This document shows, piece by piece, positions 40,895 through 49,995 of a stretch of 64,000 nt of DNA. The DNA comes from Bacteroidales bacterium (GTDB taxonomy: Bacteria > Bacteroidota > Bacteroidia > Bacteroidales > M50B96), in the NCBI GenBank assembly GCA_021740905.1, contig JAIOYV010000002.1, forward strand, positions 1 to 64,000, given 5' to 3'. The notes beneath the pieces are model-generated. The model had not been told where the DNA came from and ran no database searches. It worked only from the letters and a program-made list of their open reading frames with translations. The first letter of the stretch is position 1. Every line of letters begins with the position of its first letter. The translations under genes and the position numbers were made by a program.

Positions 40895-43800
40895 ATGAAA
40901 AAGATAATACTAATTGCATTGATTGTATCGACATACTTTGTTTCGTTTGGACAAAATTATGAGATTGATGCCTATAATGGACAAACAGTGACCACATGTT
41001 CCGGTTTTTTCTACGACAGTGGTGGCCTGCCAGGAAGTTATGTGACAAACGAAAGCTACACGGTAACTTTCTGCCCTTCCACAGCAGGAACCAAGATCGA
41101 TCTCGATTTTAGCAGTTTCAATGTGAGTGGAAGTGCTGCCATGCAGATTTACGATGGCCCTAATAATACATTCAACAGTTTCGGGACTTTTAGCACCCCC
41201 GGCTTTTCTCCCGTTGGTATGGGTGTTGCTGCCACGCCAACTAATACGTCAGGTTGTTTAACCGTTGAATGGACATCGGGCACTTCGAGCAACATGGGTT
41301 GGATAGCCGAAGTATCATGCATTGTTCCCTGCCAAACGGTGCTGGCTACTTTAATCAGCTCCACGCCACCCGTAAGCCCGGAAGGATTCATTGACATCTG
41401 TCCCGGCGATTCAGTAACATTTTATGGGGGTGGGATTTATCCTGAAAACAATTTGATATATACGCAAGGAAACAATACCTCTTCCTATATATGGAATTAT
41501 GGAAATGGCGATTCTTCCATTGTGTCTCCAACCAATTATGGATCTGCTGTGTATGATTCCATTGCTGGTTATTTTGTCAATCTTTCTGTTATTGATTCGA
41601 TGGGATGTGCCAGCACAAATGTTTTGGCTATCCGTATCCGGGTTTCAACCGAGCCAACATTTTCAGGCAGCCATATTGCCGATCCTGTGATTTGCGATGG
41701 CGAGGTAGCCCTGCTGGATGGAGAAGTGCAGACATACTTATTTGAGGTATCGGCTGAATTGAGCCTGGCAGGGACAACCTTCTTACCCGATGGCTCAGGC
41801 GCATCCTATACTACTTCACTGATTTTTGATGCCTTTGCCCCGGGGCAGTTGCTTACTAATGTAAATGATTTTCTGAGCATGTGTGCCGTAATGGAACATT
41901 CTTATCTGGGCGACTTGGATATTACCCTTGAATGTCCAAATGGAACAGTTGTAGTCCTTAAATCTTATCCTGGTTGTGGAAGCACCTATCTTGGTGTACC
42001 TATTGACGTGGATGCCAATTTGAATCCTGGGGTAGGCTGGGAATATTGTTGGTCGCCAAACCCAACGTATGGGACCATGAATGCCGAATGTGGCTCTTAT
42101 TCGACTATGCCTTCTGGTTCGTATGCCACAATAGGTAGCTTGGCAAGTTTTGTGGGTTGCCCTTTGAATGGGGCCTGGACTATTGAAGTTACCGACAACC
42201 TTTTATCCGATAATGGTTTTATATTCGAATGGGGAATCAATTTCAATCCACTCATATTACCTACCAATTTTGATTACCAGCCTCAGATTATTGCCCACGA
42301 CTGGAATGTCCCAATTTCTGTTGTTGTGGCTGATAGCGGACAAGATGTGACAGTATCGCCAGGTGTTGGTTTATATCCTTATACCTATTCGGTTACTGAT
42401 GATTTTGGGTGCACATACGATACAACTCTTAGCTTGCAAGTTTTGCCTAATTACATTGTTAATTTCCCTGACGATACAGTGATTTGTTCCGATGCAGTTA
42501 TGACCCTCGATGCTTCCAATAATGGAAATAATATAGGTGCACAATATGTCTGGCATTGGGATGGAACGGGAACAGATACTATTTCTACAGCTTCAAATTT
42601 TCTGGTCGACAAGCCTGGTTTTTATTGGGTTGTAATTCCCAACATAGCCCAGGGCTGTGGGCACAACGATTCTATATTGGTAGAGTACAATGAGATGGAA
42701 CTCGACTTAGGGGGAGATATTACAGGTGTTTGTTCCACCAACCCGGTTACGCTTGATGCCACAACCCCTCTATCGGGTTATCCTACTGTATCTTATTCCT
42801 GGTCGACCGGGGCAATTACCCCTACTATTACGGTTTATACCTCAGGTATATACACTGTGACCGTGGCCAGGGGGGCTTGTATCGAAATCGATTTTATTGA
42901 TGTCCAATTTGATAATCCCTTGAATGTAAATTTGGGAGCTGATAAATGGATTTGTCCGGGGGCTTTGATTACGCTGGATGCAGGTTTTGCAGGCCAGTCA
43001 TATATTTGGTCGACAGGTGCATTGAGTCAGTCCATCGAAGTTTCCAACCCCGGCACTTATTTCTTGACAGTTTCGAATGCCTGCGGAACATACACTGATA
43101 ATGTGGCTGTGGTGGCCATGACAGCCCCTTTGGTTGATTTGGGCAGTGATGCTTTTATTTGTAACGGACAGGTATTTTTTATGAATGCAGAATACACAGG
43201 CCCTGGCCCCGCTTCTACCTATTTATGGTCCACAGGTCAAACCTTACCTGGTGTAGCCGTATCTACACAAGGATATTATTCAGTCACAGTGACCAATCAG
43301 TGTGGAAGTACCGAAGATGAAATTTATTTGACCATCGAAAATCCTTTGACAGTAGATTTGGGTGCTAATCAGGTAATGTGCCCTGGCGACACAATTACCC
43401 TTGATGCCGGATTTGCCGAGCTTGATTATTTTTGGTCCACCGGCGAAGTTACTCAGACAATTTCAGTTACCACTCCAGATTCTTATGGCGTGGATGTAAC
43501 CAACTCGTGTGGTACTTTTTCTGATTATGTCACTATCTCTCTGGATGCTGTGAATGTGGACTTGGGCATCGATACTATTTTATGCCCTGGTGGGACCATT
43601 GAAATTAATGCAATGAACCCAGGTTCTACTTTTTCCTGGTCGAATGGGGATAATACCCAATCCATCATGGTCAATCAGGCAGGAACATATTCTGTTACCG
43701 TAACTACGCCAAACAATTGTATTGATATTGATGCAATTGGAGTAACCCTATTCGATGGACAAATCAACCTGGGTGATAATCTGGGGATTTGTGAAGGCTC

Positions 43801-44437
43801 AAGTACCATTCTCGATGCTGGTTACCCAGGCTCAACCTACGAATGGAGCACTGGCGATGTAAACCAAACGATTGAAGTTGCGGTGGCTGGAAGTTATGCT
43901 GTTACCGTTCATCACTTTTGTGGCGATATATACGATGATGTGAACATCAGCACGAACCCACTGCCTGTTGTCGATTTTGCTGCGGACACTATATATATTG
44001 CATCCTACCAAACAGCCACGCTAGATGCCGGAAATCCAGGCTCGACCTATCATTGGTCGACAGGAAAGTCAACCCAAACCATTACCAGCAACGAAGCCGG
44101 GTGGTATTCAGTAACTGTAACCGATGCGAATGGCTGTAAAGGAGAAGGAGAGGTTTACGTTTTTGTTTGGCCGGTTGGGATCAATAATCCCGAGTTCGAC
44201 CAAACCATAAGCATATTCCCCAACCCGGCAAATAGCTTCTTGTATGTTCAATCCGAAGATGAAATAATCGACGAACTTGAGCTTTACAATGCTCTGGGCG
44301 AATTGATCAAGCGATTTGATGATGATTCAAAAACCTTCCAGATCGACTTAAACAGTTTCTCCGAAGGGATTTATTTTGTCCGGATTACTTCGCGTAGTGG
44401 AGAAAGTTTGATTAGACCTGTGTCGATTGTTCGTTAA
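40895..44437 (+). CDS. Large T9SS-secreted adhesin-like protein with P-domain and Ig-like repeats
   Basis: The 1180-residue protein has a signal peptide (1-19, ending SFGQ). A CUB-like domain covers about 22-140 (SYTVTFCPSTAGTKIDLDF, IYDGPNN). A PKD-like region follows (about 165-250; SYIWNYGNGDSSIVSPTNYG). A proprotein-convertase P-like domain is at about 295-450 (DLDITLECPNGTVVVL, PLNGAWTIEVTDN). Then come about eight tandem Ig-like repeats (about 525-1090) of the form 'vdLGad-xiCpG-xxitLDAG-xxxxYxWSTG-xxtqxIxV-xxxGxYxVtVtnxCG'. A T9SS type A sorting domain ends it (last ~75 residues; ISIFPNPANSFLYVQ, YNALGELIK, FSEGIYFVRI). It has no recognised catalytic domain and is likely adhesive. The REP region starts right at its stop codon. 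Confidence 0.92.
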   Translation: MKKIILIALIVSTYFVSFGQNYEIDAYNGQTVTTCSGFFYDSGGLPGSYVTNESYTVTFCPSTAGTKIDLDFSSFNVSGSAAMQIYDGPNNTFNSFGTFSTPGFSPVGMGVAATPTNTSGCLTVEWTSGTSSNMGWIAEVSCIVPCQTVLATLISSTPPVSPEGFIDICPGDSVTFYGGGIYPENNLIYTQGNNTSSYIWNYGNGDSSIVSPTNYGSAVYDSIAGYFVNLSVIDSMGCASTNVLAIRIRVSTEPTFSGSHIADPVICDGEVALLDGEVQTYLFEVSAELSLAGTTFLPDGSGASYTTSLIFDAFAPGQLLTNVNDFLSMCAVMEHSYLGDLDITLECPNGTVVVLKSYPGCGSTYLGVPIDVDANLNPGVGWEYCWSPNPTYGTMNAECGSYSTMPSGSYATIGSLASFVGCPLNGAWTIEVTDNLLSDNGFIFEWGINFNPLILPTNFDYQPQIIAHDWNVPISVVVADSGQDVTVSPGVGLYPYTYSVTDDFGCTYDTTLSLQVLPNYIVNFPDDTVICSDAVMTLDASNNGNNIGAQYVWHWDGTGTDTISTASNFLVDKPGFYWVVIPNIAQGCGHNDSILVEYNEMELDLGGDITGVCSTNPVTLDATTPLSGYPTVSYSWSTGAITPTITVYTSGIYTVTVARGACIEIDFIDVQFDNPLNVNLGADKWICPGALITLDAGFAGQSYIWSTGALSQSIEVSNPGTYFLTVSNACGTYTDNVAVVAMTAPLVDLGSDAFICNGQVFFMNAEYTGPGPASTYLWSTGQTLPGVAVSTQGYYSVTVTNQCGSTEDEIYLTIENPLTVDLGANQVMCPGDTITLDAGFAELDYFWSTGEVTQTISVTTPDSYGVDVTNSCGTFSDYVTISLDAVNVDLGIDTILCPGGTIEINAMNPGSTFSWSNGDNTQSIMVNQAGTYSVTVTTPNNCIDIDAIGVTLFDGQINLGDNLGICEGSSTILDAGYPGSTYEWSTGDVNQTIEVAVAGSYAVTVHHFCGDIYDDVNISTNPLPVVDFAADTIYIASYQTATLDAGNPGSTYHWSTGKSTQTITSNEAGWYSVTVTDANGCKGEGEVYVFVWPVGINNPEFDQTISIFPNPANSFLYVQSEDEIIDELELYNALGELIKRFDDDSKTFQIDLNSFSEGIYFVRITSRSGESLIRPVSIVR

Positions 44438-44614
44438 CCGTGCAACCGATTTTTTTTCGGTGGCACGGCTACTTGTCACGGCCTTTGGTTCTTTTTCTGT
44501 GGCTGGGCTACAGAACTGGTGAATAGCCGTGCCACGGAAAAGAATCCGTGGTTCGGCTGTTGGACTGGTGAATAGCCGTGCCACGGAAAAGAATCCATTG
44601 CACGGGGCGGAGGG
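44438..44614. repeat. REP-like palindrome array, 3' side of the RAYT gene
   Basis: The array has a hairpin CCGTGCAACCGA with TCGGTGGCACGG around a T-tract (44439-44468). Then come GTCACGGC/CTGTGGCTG-like variants and two copies of GGTGAATAGCCGTGCCACGG (44518-44537 and 44567-44586), each followed by AAAAGAATCC. The first also carries the closing CCGTGG arm. The units recur across the transposase gene, at 45341-45531. GC content is high against AT-rich neighbours. Confidence 0.85.
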
Positions 44615-45292
44615 TTAAAAAATCCCACTCGAATCAACAATAATATAAGACTGACCAAAAAAGTCCTCCCTGTCGAAATTCACTATTTCGTAGGCTTTCT
44701 CTTTATTGATTAGCGTACCCTTACGAATTCCCATGTAATCTCGAAAAGAAGAAAACTCCCAATCTTCCATCTTAGCAACCAAACCCGCTTTCCATGGATT
44801 TTGATGGATATATTGAAAACATTTAAAGGCATAGTCAATTCGCATATTGATACCATAATTTGTCTTGCTAAAAATAGGTCCTGTATTGTTTAAATACTTC
44901 AACTTCGAGTTTTGACGAAAAAGGCTGCCACTTCTTCCTTGCTGCCGATTAATGGCCTGGGTATAACTACTGAGCATAATCCGTAGGTTATGGCTAAATG
45001 GCGATTTGTCTGGCCTCGGTGCACCCGCCGGTGCAACTGCCGGTGCATCCGATTCTTTTTCGGTGGCACCGCTACAGTTATCCGTTGCTCCGCTCTGGTT
45101 AGCAGTGCCACCGCTTTGAGCGGTTGCTCGGGTAAGCAGAAAGTGAAAATGGTTCGGCATCAAACACCAGGCAAGGATATCGCAATGTGGGTAAAGATGC
45201 TTCCTCACTTTTTCAAGAAAAAAAATGTAGTTTGCCTTTTTATAAAATATCGGTACTTTATTATTGCCCTGATTGTACAGATGAATTAGCAT
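44615..45292 (-). CDS. REP-associated tyrosine transposase (RAYT, Y1_Tnp) with in-frame REP insert
   Basis: From the ATG at 45292 the protein has 225 residues. The N-terminus MLIHLYNQGNNKVPIFYKKA and ILAWCLMPNHFHFLL carry the HxH metal motif (H48, H50) of single-strand Y1 transposases. The predicted catalytic Tyr is in the helix SSYTQAINRQQGRSGSLF (about Y110). YIHQNPWKAGLVAKMEDWEF is the usual RAYT C-terminal signature. Between the two active-site elements (about residues 54-93) lies a low-complexity Ala/Gly/Ser/Thr-rich insert not expected in the family. Its DNA is a run of the same REP units that flank the gene. The frame is open throughout. An in-frame TTG at 45310 is a less likely start. 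Such proteins mobilise or process REP palindromes as single-stranded DNA. Confidence 0.88.
   Translation of the reverse strand: MLIHLYNQGNNKVPIFYKKANYIFFLEKVRKHLYPHCDILAWCLMPNHFHFLLTRATAQSGGTANQSGATDNCSGATEKESDAPAVAPAGAPRPDKSPFSHNLRIMLSSYTQAINRQQGRSGSLFRQNSKLKYLNNTGPIFSKTNYGINMRIDYAFKCFQYIHQNPWKAGLVAKMEDWEFSSFRDYMGIRKGTLINKEKAYEIVNFDREDFFGQSYIIVDSSGIF
45015..45133. repeat. REP-like units embedded in the RAYT coding sequence
   Basis: The stretch contains TCCGATTCTTTTTCGGTGGC followed by ACCGCTAC (45048-45075). This matches the flanking units ACCGATTTTTTTTCGGTGGC followed by ACGGCTAC (from 44445) and ACGACTAC (from 45355), all in the same orientation. GTGCCACCGCTTTGAGCGGT (45105-45124) matches GTGCCACAGCTTTGAGCTGT (45437-45456). 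Further GGTGC/GCACC palindromes lie at 45018-45047. Confidence 0.8.
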
Positions 45293-45340: not shown

Positions 45341-45540
45341 GCCGCAACCGTGCCACCGATTTTTTTTCGGTGGCACGACTACTTTGCATCCAGTCTGGAA
45401 TTCCTGTGTCTATCTGGACTAGGATTTTTTATACCCGTGCCACAGCTTTGAGCTGTTGCACGATCACTTGGGGAAGTAAATCTGTGTTTCGGGTGAATAG
45501 CCGTGCCACGGAATAAGAATCCGTGGCACGGGAAGTCCGT
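45341..45540. repeat. REP-like palindrome array, 5' side of the RAYT gene
   Basis: Three hairpins are visible. CGTGCCACCGA (45349-45359) pairs with 45367-45377 around a T-tract. GTGCCACAGC pairs with GCTGTTGCAC around TTTGA (45437-45461, imperfect). A perfect 11-bp stem is CCGTGCCACGG (45501-45511) with 45521-45531 and loop AATAAGAAT. The last is preceded by GGGTGAATAG, as in the copies on the other side. It lies directly beside the stop codon of the large glycoside hydrolase-like gene and may also terminate it. Confidence 0.87.
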
Positions 45541-48500
45541 TTACTGTTTCACATAAATCAATATCTCGCCAATATTTGCACCATATTCTTCTTTCGATAT
45601 TTGTATATATCGTGTATTCACTTCAACTGCATGGCCATTCCAGCCATTGTAGCGTTTGCAACCATCCACAAAAAGACTGGTCCAGTTGCCAGGTTGGCCT
45701 GTCAGGACTCGAAGATTACCAGATTCGTTTTTATCAAAAATATATATGTAAGCAATATCGTATTCCTGTCCCAGGTCGATGTAGCAATTATACGGATACC
45801 CTGCAGGGATTGTCGGTGTCGACCAACTGGTTTGGGCTGAAAGTTCATTGCCCATCAAAGGGTCTCCAACAATTCCCTGTTCATCTACATAAGCTTCGAA
45901 TCCAGCATATCCCGATTCGTTAACGATCATGCTTGTATCAAGGGTAAGCATGCTAATGGTATTGTTCAAAGCAGGAAAGCCTGTTCCATTATTCACAGCC
46001 ACAAATATGGGTGTTTCAGAGACATCAACACTTGTTGTTCCACTATTTACGGTTAGTAGGGTTTCTTCTCCGTTTATATTTCCTTCTTGCAATTCAACCA
46101 GCATTGCACTGGTTTCATTAGTTGTTAATTGCAGGTTATAGCCTTGTACGCTTGTTTGATTGCTGGTAGGGCAATAAAGCGCATAAACCGCTTCGGTGGC
46201 TGTTTCATTCACAAACTTATAGATTTTTACCAACAAATTTCCCGATGAAATTTCTGATTCGAAGTGCATGCCGGCGAGGCGGTTTTTCATAGTGTACACA
46301 TAATACCACGATGGCTTGGGTGCACACAATGAATCTTTGGGGCCAATCAGGCCGCATGTCATGTACCGGGTCGGTGAATTGGCATCCACATCCTTTAGCA
46401 TGTACATCATGGCTTTGTCGACTTTCGCGGCAGCTAATGCTAGATATGACCGCACTATCCACTGTCCTTGCACCTCTTCCTGGCTAAAAGTGCCGATGGC
46501 AGGAGCTCGTTGAGGTGAATTAGGGTGGGTATCGTAACCAAATTCCGAAATCCAGACTTCAACATTGGGCAAGTACCTGTTGCGGAAATCGACAAACTCT
46601 TCCAACCGTTCTTTCAAGCCATCATCTTCGGGCGAGATGCCCACATCACCAGCAAACTGTTCGCCACCATTATTACTGTAATGATGCACGTTGATGACAT
46701 CCCAGGGAAAATCCCCGTTCCGGTAATGGTCGCTCCACAATTTCATTGCCTTGATATAGTCCAACTTAGGTTCGGCAATACCACCCATTACGAATAGGGT
46801 AGAGGAGTCAGCATTTTTAACCCCGACTGTATTGCCCAGCGTTCCCAGGTGACCATCGCAATCGGCACTCGACATGGCAGCATATTCGTAAGGAAGGAAG
46901 AAACCTCCGCGCCCTTTCCACCATTTATCTTGTTCGTTCCAGTTTTCAAAATAGTACAGCTTATTCAATCCTGACAGTGGCTGGATGCCCGATGCTACCT
47001 TCAAAAGATTGCTTGCAACATTGTTATTGCCATAACGTGCCCCAAACTGAAACATGTGGTCAGCATGTTCGATATATGATCCGGGTTGTAGGGGATCATC
47101 ATTCGCAGAAATTGGCTTATGTTCTAATTTCGAGTAGTCTCCCTCGGCCATCCATACAGTATTTCCCTGTAAATCCGGGCTACAAATAATCCCAAGATTA
47201 TTCATATTCTCGTAGAAATTATCGAAATCGAAACCAGTGCTGGGCGAATACCAGGCATTTTCGTTGTTTGGATAACCCGGATATGTGGGTGTGTAGTTTC
47301 CTTCTATCCACATCCAGGTGTGATATTCACGGACCATCCCACATGCATTGAGTCTCCCGATTGGATCGGTGGAAAAGGCATTCACCCCAATAAACTCTTC
47401 CATTACAGGTGGGGCAACGACAATTGGTTCGGGTATTGTGGTTTGGATATCGCTCAGTGCAGATCCATAGACAACAATTTCAGAAAAACGGCTGTATCGG
47501 TTGTGCAAAGTAACTCTGATGTAGCGGCTTTGTTGATCTACCTCATGGGCATTCCAGGTGTCCGAATTTAATAAACTGTCTTCGAAAGCAAGAGTCCAAT
47601 CGAATGGCTCACCTATTGAAATACTTACCGGACCTGGAATAGTATCGCTATTTCCATCAAAATCATCAAAAAGATAAATATCCGAAATATCATACATTGC
47701 CCCCAGGTCGATCAAGGCGCTACCCGGATAAAACCAATCGGCAACTTGCATGTCCCATCGATTTTCGACAGGGTTTCCAGCATTGTTCATCGGTTCACAA
47801 GCCTGGGCTTGTTCATCAACCAAGAGTGTAGCATCGCCCTGCACCCATTCATTCAGTACCATATCGCCTGTGAGAAATATTTTTTGGACAGGGCCGCCAA
47901 TATCTATTTTTGTTTCACCATAAGCCAAATTTGAAAGTGGCGAACGGTTTTCGAAATCGTCGTAAGCATAAAAAGCAAAATAGTAGGGTGTACGGGAATT
48001 AAGATCCAAAATAGTGACCGTTTGTTGTTGACCACCTTGCACCGGGTAAATGATCATAGTAACAGGTTGTGCCTCCAGAAAATTTCCTTCATTAATTGGA
48101 TGGCTGCTGTAGCGCATGTCGTAAAGTAGTGCCTGATCAGTCCAATTATCATCGCCGGGTGCTGTCCATGACAGGGTCAGGGAAGTTGTATCTTCTTGCG
48201 TAACCTCAAAATCTGTTACACCTGCCGGAGGGATAGTGTCGAAATTTCCGATGTAATAATCGTATCCATATACCACTATTTCCGAAGTGTTCGATGTAGG
48301 TGTCGACCTACCACAGCGCAAATATCGGGTAGTAGCCGAAACATTATGCTGATTCCATGTAAGGTAGCCCGTCAGCCCATCATTTACAAGGGGGAGCCAA
48401 TTGGTGGAATTTCCAAAATCGACTGAAAAATTACCCGATGCGTTTACATCGCGGAGAAATATTTTGGTCACATCAATGGGACTTCCTAAATCAATAATGG

Positions 48501-49995
48501 AATAACATGGATAAGGGACCGAACTGCTAAACCCGGTATTCCATGTGGTGAGAGGATTTCCACCTGTACTATTGGCAGGATCGCCGGCAAGCAATTGCTC
48601 GTCCAATAACATCCCAGCATCGCCATAACCTGAAATATTCATGATCATCCCTGCCGACAAGGAAATCTTTTCCTCTACAGGTACGGTTCCATCATCGTAG
48701 GCATAAAGCACTATTTCCGAAAATTTTGCCTCACGCTCGGTTAAGGTGAAGCGAAGGAAACGTGAGAATTTGTCAAATTCGTGCAGCTTCCATTGCTTGT
48801 AGGTTTTTAAGTTATCGGCAAAAAGAAAATGCCAACTACCTGGCTGACCGTACTCGACCACCAAATCACCCGAACTGTTCACATCGAAAAGATACATCTT
48901 TGTAATATGCTTCACCGATCCCAGGTCGATGTATGCACTCAAGGGATAAAGGGCGTGGTTGCTCCCTGGATACCATTCGCCAACCGGTTGATATGCAGTG
49001 GTGGCAGGGTCGCCACATAGCAATTGTTCATTTACCATTGTGGTGGCATCGCCCAAACCAGATGGATTTGTTACCATAAAAGGTTCGAGGACAAGACGGT
49101 ATTCGCCAATGAAGGCCGAGGAAGTGGTTGTCCCATCCACCATATTTGAAATCGGGGTGCATGAAACAGGTGCCCCATCAAATAAATTTGGGTTGACATT
49201 AGGGATATCGCCAACCACTTTCATAGCAAAATAATATGTCTTATCATCTTCCAAATTAGGGATTGTTATGGATTGGCTCATTCCCGCGATCCCTGGCGAG
49301 AAGGAAATGGGAAATGACGCATTGGAATAAAAGTTTTGATTGGTGATTAGCTGCGAGCTATATCGTAAATCGTAAGCAGTAATGTTCCCTATTTGGGTTC
49401 CCATGTCTACATCGGTCCAGCTAAGGGAGATGGTGCTTTCAGAAACGGAATCGACAGCCAGGTTGGTAATTGTGGGGACCGGAGGGGCTATATCCGTGGC
49501 ATAAATCACCACTTCGTTGAAATTCGATTGTGAGCCAACTTTAGTAAAGCGCACATATCTGGTGCTGCAACTCACAAAATGTTCCTGCCAATTTTTGTAC
49601 CTGTCGCAGGGCTCGGTAAAAAGATAAACCCAGCTTCCCGGTTCTCCATATTCTACAATCAAATCGCCCATTCCATTATAATCGTATATATAGATGCGCG
49701 ACAGATCGGTCACACTTCCTAAATCGATGTAAGCAGAGGCTGGGTAATTGGACGAATTATAGGCCGTGTACCATTTAGTAATAGGATGGCTGACAATTCC
49801 ACTAGCTGGATCGCCTGCAAGGATTTGCTCATCGACCATCATGCCGGCATCGCCAACCCCGGATTCGTTGGTAACCATCGAAGGGGTCAATGTAAACTTT
49901 GATTCTTGCGTTTGGCTTTGGGCAAAAAAAGATAGGCTAAAAAAGCCTATCAGGAACGAGATTCTTATTGAGTTGGAGAGTATGTGTTTTTCCAT
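45541..49995 (-). CDS. Secreted multidomain glycoside hydrolase-like protein (clan GH-A fold)
   Basis: The 1484-residue protein has a signal peptide (about 1-29, ending FFAQSQ). Five discoidin-like modules (about 35-170, 300-430, 440-580, 690-830, 1360-1484) each carry versions of GYGDAGMLLDEQLLAGDP, a YIDLGS strand and a WLP-type core. FN3 domains lie between modules 1 and 2 and between 3 and 4. A TIM-barrel-like domain spans about 850-1260. In it YFENWNEQDKWWKG offers an acid/base Glu after Asn and VWISEFGYD the nucleophile Glu, the clan GH-A pattern. The substrate is unknown. There is no T9SS sorting domain: the C-terminus is the last discoidin module (GANIGEILIYVKQ). It follows the small CBM-like T9SS gene on the same strand, 48 bases apart. 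Confidence 0.87.
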   Translation of the reverse strand: MEKHILSNSIRISFLIGFFSLSFFAQSQTQESKFTLTPSMVTNESGVGDAGMMVDEQILAGDPASGIVSHPITKWYTAYNSSNYPASAYIDLGSVTDLSRIYIYDYNGMGDLIVEYGEPGSWVYLFTEPCDRYKNWQEHFVSCSTRYVRFTKVGSQSNFNEVVIYATDIAPPVPTITNLAVDSVSESTISLSWTDVDMGTQIGNITAYDLRYSSQLITNQNFYSNASFPISFSPGIAGMSQSITIPNLEDDKTYYFAMKVVGDIPNVNPNLFDGAPVSCTPISNMVDGTTTSSAFIGEYRLVLEPFMVTNPSGLGDATTMVNEQLLCGDPATTAYQPVGEWYPGSNHALYPLSAYIDLGSVKHITKMYLFDVNSSGDLVVEYGQPGSWHFLFADNLKTYKQWKLHEFDKFSRFLRFTLTEREAKFSEIVLYAYDDGTVPVEEKISLSAGMIMNISGYGDAGMLLDEQLLAGDPANSTGGNPLTTWNTGFSSSVPYPCYSIIDLGSPIDVTKIFLRDVNASGNFSVDFGNSTNWLPLVNDGLTGYLTWNQHNVSATTRYLRCGRSTPTSNTSEIVVYGYDYYIGNFDTIPPAGVTDFEVTQEDTTSLTLSWTAPGDDNWTDQALLYDMRYSSHPINEGNFLEAQPVTMIIYPVQGGQQQTVTILDLNSRTPYYFAFYAYDDFENRSPLSNLAYGETKIDIGGPVQKIFLTGDMVLNEWVQGDATLLVDEQAQACEPMNNAGNPVENRWDMQVADWFYPGSALIDLGAMYDISDIYLFDDFDGNSDTIPGPVSISIGEPFDWTLAFEDSLLNSDTWNAHEVDQQSRYIRVTLHNRYSRFSEIVVYGSALSDIQTTIPEPIVVAPPVMEEFIGVNAFSTDPIGRLNACGMVREYHTWMWIEGNYTPTYPGYPNNENAWYSPSTGFDFDNFYENMNNLGIICSPDLQGNTVWMAEGDYSKLEHKPISANDDPLQPGSYIEHADHMFQFGARYGNNNVASNLLKVASGIQPLSGLNKLYYFENWNEQDKWWKGRGGFFLPYEYAAMSSADCDGHLGTLGNTVGVKNADSSTLFVMGGIAEPKLDYIKAMKLWSDHYRNGDFPWDVINVHHYSNNGGEQFAGDVGISPEDDGLKERLEEFVDFRNRYLPNVEVWISEFGYDTHPNSPQRAPAIGTFSQEEVQGQWIVRSYLALAAAKVDKAMMYMLKDVDANSPTRYMTCGLIGPKDSLCAPKPSWYYVYTMKNRLAGMHFESEISSGNLLVKIYKFVNETATEAVYALYCPTSNQTSVQGYNLQLTTNETSAMLVELQEGNINGEETLLTVNSGTTSVDVSETPIFVAVNNGTGFPALNNTISMLTLDTSMIVNESGYAGFEAYVDEQGIVGDPLMGNELSAQTSWSTPTIPAGYPYNCYIDLGQEYDIAYIYIFDKNESGNLRVLTGQPGNWTSLFVDGCKRYNGWNGHAVEVNTRYIQISKEEYGANIGEILIYVKQ

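Follow-up and report, generated by a model that had tools for sequence, protein, structure and literature searches.

The described arrangement closest to the one considered here comes from the survey of Quentin et al. 2018 (PMC6006769). The available sections of that paper describe a search of complete genomes for PF01797 matches at E < 0.01, and give in-frame repetitive extragenic palindromes (REPs) between the HUH motif and the tyrosine (Y) as unique to subclass 2.4 of the TnpAREP proteins, also known as REP-associated tyrosine transposases (RAYTs). The region of the insert is read there as peripheral, with perhaps little impact. REPINs, in the accessible text of PMC3116915, are extragenic pairs of inverted REPs with a spacer, predicted to form a single hairpin and lying near a RAYT. 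Intragenic REPs and Rickettsia palindromic elements (RPEs), as presented in the available part of PMC3733652, are palindromic repeats in working genes, some of them dimers, with host genes unrelated to repeat mobility. For the E. coli system, excerpts of PMC8266576 state that the REPs require a bulge in the stem.

We consider the gene at 44615..45292 on the minus strand of a 64,000-nucleotide stretch of Bacteroidales DNA (contig JAIOYV010000002.1 of assembly GCA_021740905.1; hereafter the window). This RAYT, the query in what follows, is a variant of the known arrangement: its REPIN-like doublet belongs to a RAYT that falls outside the subclass with described internal REPs. Its doublet resembles the REPINs in having two inverted REPs and a spacer, a predicted single hairpin and a RAYT at hand, and differs from them in lying within the transposase frame. 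It shares with the intragenic REPs and RPEs a position inside a gene, the difference being that this gene is a transposase flanked by the same repeats. With E. coli rayT/TnpAREP (PDB accession code: 4er8; PMC8266576 in part) the query shares the fold, the positions of the HUH and Y residues, the GTAG foot and a mid-stem irregularity in the REP; the E. coli protein has no loop insert. We consider it probable that a doublet of the query's own REP family was copied from beside the gene into an exposed, tolerant loop of the protein.

The internal doublet and its flanking copies

The locus has eight REP units, three on either flank and two within the reading frame. Internal unit A (45099..45131, plus strand, residues 54-65) has the apex GCTCAAAGC on the gene strand, and internal unit B (45041..45075, minus strand, residues 73-84) has a GTAG foot and the 7-nt loop AAAAGAA. 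They match a REP model (R1), built from the eight units of the locus, at 40.1 and 49.7 bits respectively, each unit being itself in the model. Three 12-nt tandem repeats (CGGTGCACCCGC and variants; 45017..45052, plus strand; repeat family D5) overlap the end of unit B. On the 5' side of the gene are a type B unit with a GTAG foot (45348..45382, minus strand; repeat comparison and R1 model), a type A unit (45431..45463, plus strand; repeat comparison, R1 model and doublet alignment) and a type C unit (45497..45531, plus strand; R1 model). The 3' side holds two type C units (44572..44605 and 44523..44556, both plus strand; R1 model) and a type B unit (44438..44472, minus strand; repeat comparison and R1 model). 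All three B units have the foot GTAG and all three C units ATAG, and the feet of the two A units are TAGC and TACC, so that the 5' GTAG-type foot that marks the hairpins of RAYT/TnpAREP systems is found here.

Units A and B are mutually inverted, and their order and orientation match those of the 5' doublet (45348-45463), with a spacer 25 alignment columns shorter. The initial annotation had given the internal DNA the same orientation as the flanking palindromes; in fact one unit has the orientation of the gene and the other is inverted. On the gene strand the foot of unit B contains a TAG and that of unit A a TAA, both of them out of frame.

Does the internal segment truly match the flanks? 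The stretch 45039-45077 is 79% identical to the flank copy 44436-44474 over 39 nt, and 45100-45130 is 84% identical to 45432-45462, which bears out the long shared stretches reported in the initial annotation. The best local score of the segment on its own flanks is 25.5, against a maximum of 15.5 in 2000 codon shuffles. The other 117-nt stretches of the window (643 of them) score no higher than 14.0 on the query flanks, two other parts of the query gene score 10.5-12.0, and the query loop reaches at most 13.0 on the flanks of 40 other homologues. The loop stretch is rich in Ala, Gly, Thr and Ser, as would suit a common low-complexity linker whose likeness to REPs is one of composition; this candidate is ruled out by the 2000 shuffles together with the 643 stretches, the ordered doublet also speaks against it, and we give it practically no credence. 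In the RNA fold (segment z -4.63), 14 base pairs join unit A to unit B and the spacer adds 3, so that, as in REPINs, two inverted REPs can form one hairpin. The DNA fold (segment z -4.34) has no such pairing, and unit B forms its own hairpin in both the minimum free energy and the centroid structure. The pair is, on this evidence, a putative REPIN-like doublet within the RAYT frame.

Further members of the family, which the initial annotation would have elsewhere in the genome, are found there. The genome searched comprises 6.54 Mb in 160 contigs, the window being its contig C128. With 150 of 996 candidates scored, R1 has at least 23 matches, or at least 20 places once three opposite-strand repeats are merged: eight at the query locus, in the model by construction, and at least 12 elsewhere. 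A 21-nt unit, at no more than two mismatches, occurs 10 times, three of them at the locus, and the same unit read backwards as a control does not occur in this genome. The query is therefore a REP-flanked gene (six flanking units) with copies in at least 12 further places, as is typical of a RAYT/TnpAREP. A single close REP pair (C38:18290 and 18341) is present among the 12 places outside the locus. When these are compared with open frames of at least 100 codons, seven touch none; two are near the start of 528- and 420-codon frames (positions 23 and 4), the former also touching a 133-codon frame on the opposite strand; and the remaining three touch a 130-codon frame at position 12, a 132-codon frame at position 12 and a 200-codon frame at position 32. 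The RAYT itself is flanked by two large frames, 40895-44437 (plus strand, 1180 aa) and 45541-49995 (minus strand, 1484 aa), with the look of secreted repeat proteins; the first of them ends in a stretch that resembles a type IX secretion sorting domain, a candidate assignment.

The protein, its class and its relatives

The Y1 transposase frame named in the initial annotation is confirmed by an open reading frame of 225 aa from an ATG (231 aa with an upstream TTG start), open along its whole length in the frame list, and by its structural match to 4er8. NCBIfam model NF047646 (REP_Tyr_transpos) gives the protein 50.7 bits, below the model's cut-off of 80, and Pfam PF01797 falls short of its cut-off with E values of 0.13 and 0.10; the same Pfam model matches 43 of 46 relatives at E ≤ 10 (best E = 2.4e-6). 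The AlphaFold2 model (46-sequence alignment; mean predicted local distance difference test, pLDDT, 83.6; predicted template modelling score, pTM, 0.79) has a confident core. Its top Foldseek match in the PDB, at E 3.1e-6, is 4er8, a complex of E. coli TnpAREP with a REP hairpin (TM by target 0.66, 18% identity over the structural alignment), with IS200/IS608/ISDra2-type transposases ranking next. By sequence and modelled fold, then, the gene is a RAYT/TnpAREP, an HUH/Y1 transposase related to E. coli TnpAREP.

The HUH motif codons H48-F49-H50 (45143..45151, minus strand), read from the sequence, with H48 and H50 invariant in 46 sequences, are where the initial annotation had placed them, as is the low-complexity stretch. 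The catalytic tyrosine had been misplaced at about Y110. That residue, an invariant tyrosine in the 46-sequence alignment, falls within helix alphaC of the model; Y161 in YIHQNP (44810..44812, minus strand; Y167 in the 231-aa numbering) is nearly invariant, aligns with the Y of YIYINP in 4er8 (residue 115 there, by counting in the alignment) and is most likely the catalytic residue. S181 and S182 are invariant in the 46 sequences as well, and F125 is nearly so among the relatives. An HUH motif with a single catalytic Tyr in a TnpAREP fold is thereby predicted. Between beta3 (48-55) and alphaC (98-118) lies a low-confidence loop, residues 56-97 (45002..45127, minus strand), which the model predicts to be disordered: pLDDT block means are 46-78 across residues 51-100, and below 50 at residues 61-81. 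A second and milder dip covers residues 131-150 (block means 68 and 56).

A decaying pseudogene, open by chance after a REP hit, has to be considered here. The closest homologue of the query reaches 61% at most in the trimmed alignment, too distant for gauging selection on this copy, and a 48% paralogue has one in-frame TGA. The query frame, on the other hand, is intact, the HUH residues, Y110, Y161, W178, S181 and S182 are all kept, and the core fold is confident; we regard decay as unlikely.

For the class assignment we rely on the signatures in the available sections of PMC6006769. The query shares with subclass 2.4 the motif NH[IFV]H (as NHFH) and the presence of REPs inside the tnpAREP gene, in frame between HUH and Y. 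It differs from it in three of the five features tested, having F (GSLFRQ; F125) in place of W-Q, YIHQNP in place of YIxNNP, and the downstream SS extension (S181 S182) that subclass 2.4 lacks; the tree also places its relatives away from the 2.4-like rows, and filing it in 2.4 was rejected. With subclass 2.6 it has YIH[QN]NP and SS in common (YIHQNP, WEFSS) and not NH[LIV]H or W-Q (NHFH, LFR); this assignment too was rejected, and rows L124-L133, which are 2.6-like, make up a starred group of their own. The second signature of subclass 2.1 (NH[YF]H, FQ, Y[IV]HLNP, SS, no REPs) is excluded by the LFR, the YIHQNP and the REPs of the query, and L142 and L144, the rows with the 2.1 signature, fall in a group of 7 rows separate from the 92-row group that holds the query. 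Since it fits none of 2.4, 2.6 and 2.1, the query is left unclassified. The initial annotation knew of no earlier description of such an arrangement; the survey, in the sections at hand, describes it for subclass 2.4. Internal REPs do appear to extend to RAYT branches beyond 2.4, with the inner copy resembling the outer copies of the same gene. The same order has W-Q type genes that are subclass-2.4-like; of 27 tested, 8 have a loop that matches their own flanks.

The next question is how common such a match is. The survey set consists of 93 distinct homologues, the loop-flank match of each being judged against the flanks of 40 other homologues. The own-flank match wins in 41 of the 93, made up of 36 of the 56 with loops of at least 36 aa and 5 of the 37 whose loops are shorter. 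In 28 of the 93 the loop was equalled or outscored by a control stretch from the same gene. In the tree, built by a quick method with SH-aLRT (Shimodaira-Hasegawa-like approximate likelihood ratio test) support only and with eight long reference branches flagged, the deeper forks are unsure for these reasons. The query and 11 short-loop proteins make up a group of 12 rows (SH-aLRT 83, not starred), apart from a sister clade of 69 rows (SH-aLRT 95, starred). Its loop has 54 residues against 28-29 in those 11, in agreement with the lengthening in-frame insert proposed in the initial annotation, and in none of the 11 does the loop score higher on the gene's own flanks than on the flanks of the 40 others.

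Examined together with 10 further short-loop proteins (21 in all), these 11 contribute no significant loop hairpin, nor does any of the others; one of the 21 (L069) has a marginal own-flank match, 13.5 against 13.0. The two flanks of a gene are alike beyond the flanks of 40 others in 21 of 21 short-loop genes. In the palindrome clade, where similar palindromes are also present in foreign flanks, the same is true of 15 of 46 genes; it is not true of L003. Placed on the tree with the query included, the palindrome label needs 17 changes against 37.6 in shuffles, with only 2 forced by starred branches. Because its nearest, short-loop rows have no repeat hairpins, the query most likely gained its doublet separately from the other internal REPs. 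It is possible instead that a single old insert was later lost in the short-loop rows.

Several relatives show features of their own. The loops of L019 and L067 are direct repeats that match their own flanks (scores 106.5 and 116.0), and the 92-residue loop of L109 repeats the peptides TDGFTL and SEAVSK; internal repeats seem to have expanded in tandem in all of these. The short-loop RAYTs L046, L048, L050 and L065 have long repeats common to both sides (scores 75.5-121.5), longer than single REPs and perhaps the terminal repeats of a mobile unit. At L092:1501-3627 an inner-palindrome RAYT frame continues without a stop to the end of its stretch (709 codons), possibly a fusion.

We turn to the four RAYTs of the query's genome: the query (L001), its 48% paralogue L002 with the in-frame TGA, its 36% paralogue L003, and L202, a W-Q type, subclass-2.4-like RAYT with YIRDNP. 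Their loops score 25.5, 30.0, 30.0 and 25.0 on their own flanks and 9.0-12.5 on one another's, so each carries an internal REP that matches, among the four, only its own flanks. The L202 loop scores up to 27.5 on a flank from another genome, and its REP type is therefore not private to L202. Within 3 mismatches the L002 palindrome has 14 places in the genome and the L003 palindrome 5, the backward controls of both having none. Outside the two loci there are 12 such places, of which 8 are in no frame of at least 120 codons, 2 are in a 131-codon and a 147-codon frame, and 2, both L003-type, are in frames of 1011 and 624 codons. The latter (G000:C5:66051-66084, in L195, and G000:C141:30018-30051, in L196) are in frame and encode the peptides LNLSGFFPNLTGV and NLSGLKKNLTGLE, like that of the L003 RAYT itself. 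As these two long frames contain an in-frame REP that belongs to another family, tolerance of such insertions is not confined to RAYTs. Directly 3' of the L003 RAYT, a 148-nt direct repeat (L003:2116-2495, 92% identical) holds REP units.

Inner palindromes of the sister clade

Loop hairpins were called significant at p < 0.05 against 60 codon shuffles. They are found in 55 of the 93 loops, compared with 4 of 93 control stretches from the same genes, and 48 of the 55 share one phase, with the centre on the second codon base. These inner palindromes are present in 48 of the 69 sister-clade genes, the other 21 being without one by the same criterion. More than one stop-free phase was available for 40 of the 48; the fixed phase therefore points to common descent of the site, not to stop avoidance alone. 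At pairs 2-16 from the centre the 48 palindromes are 93% Watson-Crick (1000 arm shuffles: mean 57%, maximum 64%), with two to four pair types at 12 of the 15 stem positions; row L077, which appears out of register, is retained in this count. Pair 8 is the exception, paired in 38% and not Watson-Crick in 30 of the 48.

Are the outer copies of these genes of the same kind? With a flank copy defined by at least 24 of 30 identical non-apex positions, 75 are found, 52 of them no more than 100 nt from the gene. Of the 48 genes, 33 have such copies; the query, entered as a 49th row, had none. In L118, from the environmental isolate Perlabentimonas gracilis M08_MB, the inner palindrome and its 5' copy are the same at 30 of 30 non-apex positions. 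Pair 8 is Watson-Crick in 48% of the 75 copies and not so in 52%, and its state is the same inside and outside in 30 of the 33 genes, an agreement that the likeness threshold itself favours. When pairs 8 and 10 are omitted, palindromes with no flank copy (n=15) are 97% Watson-Crick paired and those with one (n=33) 98%. In a search of three genomes at no more than 3 mismatches, the L029 palindrome occurs once, in its own genome (G264), and the L028 palindrome twice, each time in G099, from which it comes, one of the two being a variant with changes in both arms; G393, the genome of L104, has no match to either, the palindrome of L104 not being among those searched for there. Over 7 chosen close pairs (dS up to 2) the core dN/dS is 0.06-0.13, and stems can be wholly different in proteins that are 74-78% identical, for example by 6 double changes at 78% identity. 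The inner REP of the sister clade is thus phase-locked and like the outer REPs of its own gene. The available sections of PMC6006769 make no mention of a fixed phase, stem covariation or inner-outer agreement.

What could keep these stems paired? The inner REP may be selected as part of an enzyme-substrate pair, as a target or sink in cis or as an mRNA hairpin for autoregulation, in which case the inner hairpin must change whenever the REP family changes. Self-nicking and autoregulation by mRNA hairpins, both raised in the initial annotation, would be hypothetical outcomes of the arrangement. The single phase, the pairing far above the shuffle maximum, the agreement at the weak mid-stem pair, the equally good pairing of the 15 palindromes with no flank copy, the isolation of the L029 palindrome (and of L028, with one variant copy) and the low dN/dS all fit this. 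The counts are not independent tests, since the sequences are related and were picked as good hairpins, and the flank copies were picked for likeness. The 21 clade members with no palindrome and the degenerate unit A of the query itself also speak against selection, and stems that differ wholly between similar proteins fit replacement by another REP too. We hold selection to be possible and on the whole doubtful. Either selection or repeated copying may have caused the sister-clade pattern.

Alternatively, the symmetry could come from a mutational process, such as template switching or palindrome correction at the fork, with neither selection nor REP copying involved. Stems scoring up to 21 do occur inside coding sequence. 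Such correction should erase the pair 8 mismatch, which is kept in 30 of 48 inner palindromes and 52% of the flank copies, so pure palindrome correction is disfavoured; the likeness to the flanking copies would also be left unexplained, and we consider this process very improbable.

Origin of the insert and its meaning

To account for the query we return to the copying of a neighbouring doublet. An inverted, REPIN-type pair of the gene's own REP family would have been copied from next to the gene into the beta3-alphaC loop, where the reading frame would have survived with the TAG and TAA of the feet both out of frame. The loop is in a part of the modelled fold that should tolerate changes in length, so that the enzyme may remain functional, and inner and outer units would be kept alike by local copying of REPs or conversion between them. 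This account is supported by the own-flank match, the ordered doublet, the RNA and DNA folds, the loop predicted to be disordered, nearest relatives with no insert, the own-flank matches of all four RAYTs of the genome and the in-frame REPs in two long frames of other genes, and by Quentin et al. 2018, who in the available sections (PMC6006769) read subclass 2.4 likewise. We infer an active protein, an insertion that was the work of this RAYT, and an insert that is for the most part tolerated and not required. A tolerant loop and local REP spread would then account for the query, selection on its inner hairpin being only possible.

Several observations weigh against such an origin. Taken by itself, unit A does not reach significance as a hairpin (p 0.148), and no copy of it in the flanks has 24 of 30 positions identical. 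None of the 12 outside places of the query type is deep inside a long reading frame, so insertion and survival inside the query gene is not simply an instance of something universal. The inner palindrome of the sister clade appears too regular for a passive insert, and cleavage or movement of REPs by the query protein is presumed.

Beyond the query, we put forward tentatively that a large Bacteroidota RAYT clade outside 2.4 has a built-in REP, in one loop and one phase, that co-evolves with its flanks down to the mismatch and is selected, the other kinds, the query included, having converged separately. If this is true, enzyme and substrate share the same nucleotides, and the inner REP is a functional part, not a scar. 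A REP inside the transposase gene bears on why RAYTs persist and on how REP families and their transposase change together. It couples the two physically, since a change of REP family must also be spelled in codons, and phase-locked, covarying inner REPs would offer a natural test of whether a RAYT needs a copy in cis. The sister-clade pattern is the part that most deserves the attention of specialists; even if the inner copies are merely tolerated, the loop would still record the past REP families of each gene.
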